Positions 7,529-47,709 of a stretch of 64,000 nucleotides of DNA are shown here, piece after piece. A program made the position numbers and the translations under genes. The notes beneath the pieces were generated by a model. The model ran no database searches. It was not told the DNA's origin and worked only from the letters and a program-made list of their open reading frames with translations. This DNA is from Stackebrandtia albiflava (GTDB taxonomy: Bacteria; Actinomycetota; Actinomycetes; Mycobacteriales; Micromonosporaceae), in NCBI RefSeq assembly GCF_007994225.1, contig NZ_VLLL01000006.1, positions 310,001-374,000 of the forward strand, read 5' to 3'. Numbering within the stretch: the stretch's first letter is position 1; each line of letters opens with the position of its first letter.

Positions 7529-7652
7529 ACCGGGAACTTGGCATCGATGGTGAACCCGGTTACGGTGTCAGCCAGCCCCTCGGCCGTCCCTCGGCCCCGG
7601 TGCTTTCTACTCGGATCGTCCGGCACGTTCCTGCCGGTGGAAGGACACGCAC

Positions 7653-15015: not shown

Positions 15016-15123
15016 CGGGGGCCGCCACTCCTCCACCCCTATGGCTTCAGCCTAGATCGCATCCCGGGCGTGGCGCCAGCCCGGAAGCCCGGGCCTGTGG
15101 ATAACCCGGGATTGTGGAAAACC
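15016..15123 (-). repeat. Dispersed DnaA-box/promoter repeat, copy A
   Basis: Read on the minus strand, this copy has TTTTCCACA (15113-15121), an 8-nt gap, TTATCCACA (15096-15104, a perfect E. coli-type DnaA box), then exactly 41 nt, then TAGGCT (15049-15054), six nt, and the conserved tail that ends GGCGGCCCCC (to 15016). TGGCGC stands 18 nt before TAGGCT as a -35. The ATG found in the other copies is ATA here. The remainder of the gene-free gap (15124-15394) is GC-rich, with no further feature except the esterase promoter area. Confidence 0.85.
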
Positions 15124-32371: not shown

Positions 32372-32480
32372 GGGGGGCCGCCACTCCTCCTCCCCATGGC
32401 GTCGAGCCTAGCCACCGCCGCCGGGACGTGTCGAGTCGCGAACCCGGTGCCTGTGGACGACGGGCCTGTTGTGGATAACC
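32372..32480 (-). repeat. Dispersed DnaA-box/promoter repeat, copy B
   Basis: On the minus strand: TTATCCACA (32470-32478, a perfect DnaA box), 9 nt, TCGTCCACA (32452-32460), exactly 41 nt, TAGGCT (32405-32410), seven nt, then ATGGGGAGGAGGAGTGG and GGCCCCCC (to 32372). TCGACA stands 18 nt before TAGGCT as a -35. The ATG opens a long frame antisense to the upstream MDMPI gene. Confidence 0.9.
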
Positions 32481-39868: not shown

Positions 39869-39987
39869 TCGTCCACAGGGGCTTTTCCACAACCGGCGCC
39901 CCGTCCACAACCCGCACCGTCGCGGCTGGACACCCGGTCCGAACCGGGGCTACGCTCGAAGTATGGGGCGGAGGTTGGAGGCCCCCC
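39869..39987 (+). repeat. Dispersed DnaA-box/promoter repeat, copy C (three boxes)
   Basis: On the plus strand: TCGTCCACA (39869-39877), TTTTCCACA (39883-39891), 9 nt, CCGTCCACA (39901-39909), exactly 41 nt, TACGCT (39951-39956), six nt, ATGGGGCGGAGG and GGCCCCCC (to 39987). TGGACA stands 18 nt before TACGCT. The ATG opens a 28-codon frame ending near 40049. This copy is the most diverged in its tail and has an extra box. The remainder of the gene-free 39798-40126 gap has no further feature. Confidence 0.85.
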
Positions 39988-43504: not shown

Positions 43505-43625
43505 CACCGGGGCAGGCGGCCTGGCTCAGCCCCCGTGCGGGGGCATCACAGTTGCGGGACAGCGCCGGATTCGCACCGGCTTCGCTGCGCAGGGTGTCAG
43601 GTGTTCGCCATGACGGTAACGCAGA
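43505..43625 (-). ncRNA. Cobalamin riboswitch
   Basis: On the minus strand the core reads GAAGCCGGTGCGAATCCGGC, then GCTGTCCCGCAACTGTGA, then a GC-rich hairpin around GCACGGGGGC, then GAGCCAGGCCGCCTGCC, the AdoCbl-riboswitch pattern. It sits about 100 nt upstream of btuF and should reduce expression of the transport operon when B12 is abundant. Ends are approximate. Confidence 0.88.
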
Positions 43626-47604: not shown

Positions 47605-47709
47605 TTCTCCACAATCCGGAGTTGTCCACACCCCTCCCCGTCCGCGGCTGGTGCGGCCCCGTCCATCGGCGTAGGCTCGACGCCATGGGGAGGAGGAGTG
47701 GCGGCCCCC
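47605..47709 (+). repeat. Dispersed DnaA-box/promoter repeat, copy D
   Basis: On the plus strand: TTCTCCACA (47605-47613), 8 nt, TTGTCCACA (47622-47630, the actinobacterial consensus DnaA box), exactly 41 nt, TAGGCT (47672-47677), seven nt, ATGGGGAGGAGGAGTGG from 47685, and GGCGGCCCCC (to 47709). TGGTGC stands 17 nt before TAGGCT. The tail is identical to that of copy B. The ATG opens a frame antisense to the neighbour. Confidence 0.9.

Follow-up and report, generated by a model that had tools for sequence, protein, structure and literature searches.

A dispersed family of probable competence-type promoters with G-tract start regions in Stackebrandtia albiflava

Four putative promoter units of the window and their genome-wide family

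The window, i.e. the whole stretch of 64,000 nucleotides analysed here (C2:310001-374000, 70% G+C), is part of the 5.55-Mb genome of Stackebrandtia albiflava, which is represented by 13 contigs, and contains four copies of a dispersed unit, designated A to D. Copy D, located at 47605..47709 on the + strand, consists according to its sequence of two boxes, a promoter and a G-tract start region. The DnaA-type boxes TTCTCCACA (47605..47613, +) and TTGTCCACA (47622..47630, +) are followed by the -35-like hexamer CTGGTG (47648..47653, +), a weak match to the family consensus CTSGAC, by the -10 hexamer TAGGCT (47672..47677, +) and by the core ATGGGGAGGAGGAGTGGCGGCCCCC (47685..47709, +), where a transcript is predicted to start on the basis of the -10 hexamer. 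A CtaG/CopD-type gene is located on one side of copy D and a small ORF that matched no Pfam family on the other. The copies A (15016..15123; core match 15019-15039, C2:325019-325039) and B (32372..32480; core match 32375-32395, C2:342375-342395) are oriented on the - strand, the former flanked by glyoxalase-type and erythromycin-esterase-type genes and the latter by MDMPI-type and thioredoxin/DsbA-type genes. Copy C (39869..39987, +) is situated after a gene encoding a tRNA-editing domain and includes three boxes (39869, 39883, 39901), the -10 hexamer TACGCT at 39951 (+) and a core match at 39965-39984 (C2:349965-349984). The window additionally contains an msiK RNA (7595-7652, +) and a cobalamin riboswitch (43520-43580, -), both scoring over the Rfam gathering threshold.

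An earlier note on this DNA had described the four copies, all of which were recovered at the same coordinates, with A and B on the - strand and C and D on the + strand, and had set the distance between the second box and the -10 hexamer at exactly 41 nt. This distance was found in the copies A, B and D and also in copy C, provided that CCGTCCACA (39901-39909) is taken as its second box, with an extra third box ahead of the pair. On the genome scale the spacing turned out to be near-fixed rather than absolute, with 41 nt in 44, 40 nt in seven and 42 nt in two of the 53 core-bearing exact pairs.

The genome scan proposed in that note was performed with the box-pair pattern TNNTCCACA-N8/9-TNNTCCACA and yielded 58 exact pairs versus a single hit for the reversed pattern used as control, which is far above chance; the original observation is right, and the family is larger than is visible from the window. 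Inspection of all 58 pairs with their flanks revealed a promoter and a core after 53 of them and neither after the other five. A narrower core pattern matched the genome 44 times and the wider pattern GGGGNGGAGGN2-3GGNGGCCC 67 times, versus zero matches in the controls, and 62 of the 67 matches were inspected together with their upstream DNA. The hexamer TANNNT is located immediately 5' of the core GGGG in all 62 copies, such that a transcript would start there, and two or three CCACA boxes are present in 61 of them. The exception (L295, G000:C1:856564) has the promoter and the core but lacks CCACA boxes and carries CTTAAGG repeats instead. Seven units were detected via the core alone and showed imperfect boxes along with the same promoter.

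The general plan of the unit thus includes two or three DnaA-type boxes, the -35 hexamer CTSGAC, the -10 hexamer TANNNT and the region AUGGGGNGGAGGN2-3GGNGGCCCC at the predicted start; a third box, beginning with TCCA 11 nt ahead of box 1, is present in 16 of the 58 pairs. Relative to a background of 70% G+C, the 53 units contain 17.5 bits of information in each of the boxes 1 and 2, 11.5 bits in the -10 hexamer and 15.9 bits in GGGGNGGAGG, whereby the constancy of boxes, -10 hexamer and core is partly built in by the patterns used to find the units. The weak conservation that the earlier note ascribed to the middle 41 nt was apparent from a mean of 0.36 bit per base and a spacer identity between copies of 0.43 (random 0.29), but the spacer includes the -35 hexamer, at which conservation reaches its maximum and which had been missed. 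Similarly, the described purine tail exists, yet it represents a highly conserved run of G-tracts where the transcript is predicted to begin, in which the G-tracts and the CCC are invariant among the 53 units and the intervening bases are variable. The chief core spellings of the genome are ATGGGGAGGAGGAGTGGCGGCCCCC, ATGGGGCGGAGGTTGGAGGCCCCC and ATGGGGTGGAGGATGGCGGCCCCC, besides rarer variants. The DNA flanking the units is near background, with pairwise identities of 0.36 before box 1 and 0.35 past the core (random 0.29). Repeats of the type CTTAAGG/CTTCAGC, about 11 bp apart and near the -35 hexamer, were observed in L295, L060, L065, L068, L071, L133, L139 and L151, and we take them to resemble an OmpR/PhoP-type operator.

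According to the predictions of a home-made gene caller, 39 of the 53 copies have a convergent gene downstream of the core (binomial p = 8e-4 versus one half), and the stop codon of this neighbour is located 15-110 nt from the core end in 31 of the 39 cases. The upstream gene lies on the same strand as the unit in 30 of the 53 copies.

Box pairs ahead of transformation-linked genes

A set of 51 box pairs without a core, derived from several genera, was picked by eye from the inspected loci. Pairs followed by a core were excluded, the overlapping triple boxes of L066 were counted as one, and the core-less pair L071:8386 as well as those among 40 later loci (e.g. L260) are outside the set. The functional assignment yielded a group of 18 pairs that precede genes encoding ComEA (5), SSB (4), YraN (2), ComM (1) and CpaE-like proteins (6), and a further ten that precede genes for M23 peptidases (5) or DUF4192 proteins (5). 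ComEA, ComM and YraN are the names that we take to correspond to the Pfam assignments SLBB+HHH_3, Mg_chelatase and UPF0102, respectively; CpaE is likewise a presumed name, and L070 and L105 of this category gave only weak ParA/AAA/CbiA Pfam matches. The roles of SSB, YraN and ComM extend beyond transformation. The remaining 23 pairs, including L118 (no candidate gene) and L123 (core-like stretch further on), have other genes or none downstream. The 28 gene-linked pairs are spread over five genera, and their genes were assigned by Pfam scan in 14 cases and named via BLAST to those in the other 14. In 11 of the 28 cases the script placed the start codon 53-54 nt after box 2, which is the site of the core's AUG in the core units and therefore indicates the same promoter geometry.

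Four of the five core-less pairs of S. albiflava precede genes for an M23 peptidase (L011), a single-strand-binding protein (L012), a DUF4192 protein (L019) and a ComEA-like protein that combines SLBB and HhH domains (L057); the fifth (L018) lies ahead of a short ORF without BLAST relative among the others. In three of these cases, L012 (ssb), L019 (DUF4192) and L057 (comEA), the box pair of the gene is preceded, at 141-146 bp, by that of a core unit. The yraN gene of this genome, located by motif only, and two dprA regions showed no matching boxes. The relative G004 possesses gene promoters without core units, as none of the five inspected pairs out of nine has a core, and relatives of this kind suggest that the units are dispensable for transformation as such.

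The DUF4192 family, the function of which is unknown, was repeatedly observed behind the box-pair promoter (L019, L066, L086, L146 and L157) and is a candidate for a new transformation gene. In the genus g18, box pairs were also seen by eye before WXG100-like and serine-protease-like genes (L130, L143, L154 and L156), which have the look of type VII secretion and no obvious link to transformation. Additionally, two back-to-back box pairs at L091 (G010:C5) face two divergent short genes, one of them without Pfam match.

The boxes had been regarded as DnaA-like nonamers in the earlier note, and the same spellings recur in the dnaA/oriC region of the genome, namely TTTTCCACA, TTATCCACA, TCGTCCACA, TTCTCCACA, TTGTCCACA and TCATCCACA. 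A search of eight genomes for the Bac_DnaA_C domain gave in each of them a single match, the DnaA-like gene, and a second DnaA-like regulator was rejected for these genomes. The shared spellings of the oriC region along with the sole Bac_DnaA_C protein make DnaA the simplest candidate; it is plausibly the protein that acts at the boxes, and it is conceivable that an unrelated regulator recognises the same site.

Start regions in related genomes and in Bacteroidetes bins

Among 300 genomes of the family, 19 contain at least 18 box pairs (up to 87), and many congeners have few. The architecture of the unit is kept in G003, G010, G045, G187 and G247, with a lineage-dependent spelling of the core. 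Among 393 other genomes sampled from the class, matches to the core pattern of S. albiflava did not rise above chance, with one or two matches in 14 of these genomes; a related core spelling is present ten times in G322 (Candidatus Stackebrandtia, apparently identical to G002 of the same genus) and four times in G321 (Herbihabitans). Conservation of the sites between species is mostly absent. Among 14 loci of G003 with box pairs, three share an intergenic region with a pair of S. albiflava (L066/L019, L071/copy D and L072/L027). According to the BLAST spans, copy D and a G003 copy adjoin the same CtaG/CopD-type gene in the same orientation, and the units were not brought into register when the two intergenic regions were aligned directly. 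At the orthologous site L027/L072, S. albiflava has promoter and core and G003 has boxes and a -10 hexamer without a core, and a conserved palindrome ATTCTAC-N5-GTAGAAT overlaps the -10 hexamer. Tandem duplications were detected past 15 of 131 cores and upstream of 10 of 131, which is no significant excess (p 0.40), and instability scars were also rejected for the four g45 genomes alone (12/59 vs 6/59, p 0.20). Short tandem repeats right after the core were observed at L108, L121, L236, L248 and L257 of g45, in insignificant excess over the upstream DNA.

The folding of ten core types was computed by means of an energy model with a quadruplex term. For five types (three of S. albiflava, G003 and Bact1) the prediction was a two-layer quadruplex on top of a GGGG/CCCC stem, and quadruplexes were obtained for the G247 core, whereas ordinary hairpins were favoured by the four types G010, G045, G187 and Bact2. 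In comparison with shuffled sequences, the quadruplex signal of the six former types gave z values of about -4.2 for three and of -1.6 to -2.1 for the others, spanning -1.6 to -4.3 overall. The commonest core of S. albiflava, representing 37 of the 44 matches to the narrower pattern, showed the weakest signal (z -1.6), with 18 of 300 shuffles being as low. Plain RNA folding of the S. albiflava cores was no better than that of shuffles (z 0.4 to 0.8), and a plain RNA hairpin was rejected for this genome; one Bacteroidetes core type formed two strong hairpins (z -3.0). A conserved RNA body beyond the start, as expected of a csRNA-like multicopy RNA acting in trans, is absent (identity past the core 0.35, random 0.29). 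A known RNA family was also rejected, with no Rfam match for the units in the window at the gathering threshold or in ten loci at E values up to 1. A leader peptide was rejected, as the AT before the GGGG is not always kept (GT, TC, AC, CA or TA in some S. albiflava copies and TAGGGG in G003) and no outstanding reading frame follows the core start.

A scan of genome contigs with the pattern ATGGGGNGGAGGN1-2TGGNGGCCCC resulted in 23 stretches. Those of Herbihabitans rhizosphaerae and Candidatus Stackebrandtia excrementipullorum have boxes upstream in most cases, and those of Bacteroidetes bins lack DnaA-type boxes upstream. Most of the Bacteroidetes cores follow an A+T-rich promoter with the period-10 operator TAAACG-N4-TAAACG-N4-TAAGCG, the bin G318 being without it. 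The operator was found 20 times in four bins, compared with zero times for the control. Among the 16 sites of G316, G317 and G319, 11 are followed by a GC-rich start region as judged by eye, five of them by the same core and others by GTGGGGTGGGGCTGCTGTCCCCCC or hairpin forms; one site precedes ssb and one a comEA-like gene, and three stayed unassigned (L225 not inspected). None of the four sites of G320 was assigned. An additional weaker operator in G316 is located before a comEA-like gene that closely follows a core unit. These sequences are metagenome bins, in which contig assignment calls for caution, and the scan was seeded with the core, such that the likeness of the cores was selected for and the link to ssb and comEA was not.

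Proposed function and alternative explanations

The units are apparently best read as dispersed promoter units of competence type that start short noncoding RNAs. Each copy would be a stand-alone transcription unit under a promoter type that also serves natural-transformation genes in this bacterial family. A protein bound to the tandem TNNTCCACA boxes, in all likelihood DnaA, would control this promoter, and RNA synthesis would begin at the front of the G-tract run (AUGGGGNGGAGG..GG.GGCCCC). As far as the sequence side of this reading is concerned, we regard it as well supported and highly probable, whereas expression and induction are presumed. Our confidence is no higher because two of the seven families included in the count, the M23 peptidases and the DUF4192 proteins, have no established role in transformation, although they repeatedly appear along with the other five. 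The RNA body would be irrelevant, and the lack of conservation past the core is expected if it is idle. The G-rich start of the RNA would remain on the C-rich strand, and the displaced G-rich strand would fold into a two-layer quadruplex on the GGGG/CCCC stem or into a GC hairpin. The local opening left, a quadruplex or an R-loop, may serve as an entry for recombination with incoming DNA, and dozens of dispersed units may make the chromosome receptive during DNA uptake. This complete explanation, including the transcription-opened G-tract as a recombination entry point in cis, is advanced tentatively and with somewhat less than even confidence; the convergent downstream genes of 39 of the 53 copies could instead indicate effects on neighbouring genes.

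The folds predicted by the quadruplex model and the lack of a conserved RNA body suggest a resemblance to the gonococcal pilE element, for which a noncoding RNA has been reported that starts within the G4 sequence and the transcription of which is needed for recombination (PMC3547852). An sRNA promoter beside a G-tract run, with a transcript initiating within it, is described for pilE and predicted for the present units; an RNA:DNA hybrid on the C-rich strand has been proposed for pilE, where changes downstream of the G-rich part were without effect. The pilE element is a single locus for pilin gene conversion with 12 GC pairs forming the G4, whereas the present units are dispersed in dozens, have two-layer quadruplex or hairpin cores, share their promoter with transformation-linked genes and would have only a putative role in recombination. 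A broader proposal states that two phyla link the transformation-gene promoter, via unrelated operators, to genome-wide G-tract-start units, which would be switched on with competence and ready the chromosome for incoming DNA by serving as recombination entry points, with DnaA as the switch in this actinobacterial family; we consider this speculative and rather unlikely.

A trans-acting multicopy RNA accounts for nearly as much as the cis model and is nearly as likely, a serious possibility that falls short of being probable. The conserved 5' domain would then be an aptamer or a pairing module supplied in large amounts during expression of the transformation genes, with many loci providing the dosage and the tails being merely read-out. 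The promoter ahead of all 62 inspected core copies fits this explanation, as does the finding that sequence-divergent core types still permit a stem, one Bacteroidetes type even two hairpins (z -3.0). The CiaR-controlled csRNAs of Streptococcus provide a precedent, in which five highly similar RNAs target comC and control pneumococcal competence (PMC4507080, PMC3091779); the likeness includes several similar sRNA genes, one regulator and a connection to competence, but the present family contains 60+ units that have only a start of about 25 nt in common. Dosage could moreover be obtained from one strong locus, so that tens of dispersed loci whose tails are unrelated would be unusual, Rfam gave no match for the units (window; ten loci), and the core spelling differs among genera, which a conserved partner would resist.

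The other explanations address the boxes, the cores or the dispersal. A titration or replication-timing element, in which DnaA is retained at the boxes and the promoter is a by-product, would resemble datA and other DnaA-box clusters, in which several DnaA boxes lie together on the chromosome away from oriC, and is compatible with the presence of the box spellings in the oriC region as well as with the uneven placement of 71 box pairs of all kinds by distance from dnaA on the complete chromosome of G187 (KS p = 1e-4). The counts per step of about 1 Mb from dnaA are 13, 23, 20, 10 and 5, however, so that the nearest Mb is not the densest, and this bias towards the origin half may just mirror gene density, which was uncontrolled. 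To our knowledge, datA clusters have no built-in promoter with a conserved start region and do not occur in dozens of copies. The -35 and -10 hexamers and the core are kept along with the boxes, and one of the 62 core copies (L295) is box-free, which makes DnaA titration, put forward in the earlier note, very unlikely as the main function. DNA uptake or self-recognition signals (DUS/USS) with genus-specific spellings would explain dispersed, dialect-like cores tied to transformation-linked genes, but only tens of copies are present per genome and the promoter attached to all 62 inspected copies is needless for uptake; we see little prospect for this explanation. The least probable one is a miniature mobile element with a com-type promoter. 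Copies come and go between species, with three of the 14 G003 loci in the same intergenic region as a pair of S. albiflava, yet the spacers are only 0.43 identical between copies (random 0.29) with constant functional parts, the core was not matched in viral contigs, plasmids or phages, and the few, poorly aligned site pairs compared gave no sign of a clean insertion flanked by repeats or a duplicated target. The earlier interpretation is hence partly supported: a selected, dispersed, promoter-like element instead of a transposon relic is in agreement with the data, which gave no transposon sign, whereas the link to the promoters of transformation genes and the Bacteroidetes cores behind another operator had been missed. 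We classify the family as promoter units of competence type that are dispersed over the genome, start in G-tracts and have a putative function.

No description of such units was found in the open-licence PMC literature at the level of listings. Transformation by means of Flp/Tad pili has been reported for Micrococcus luteus, a high-GC Gram-positive bacterium with comEA/comEC and tad genes, and the competence regulatory cascade is described as still to be identified (PMC4322843, PMC12849477); term searches of these papers, each for its own terms, gave no mention of DnaA, ssb or sRNA. The two-box promoter on comEA, ssb, comM, CpaE-like, M23 and DUF4192 genes provides a concrete regulon for a related high-GC group, with DnaA as the candidate regulator. 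The occurrence of G-tract start units in two phyla suggests that natural transformation includes a component not recognised so far, which may be either a chromosomal recombination receptor acting in cis or a high-dose sRNA.
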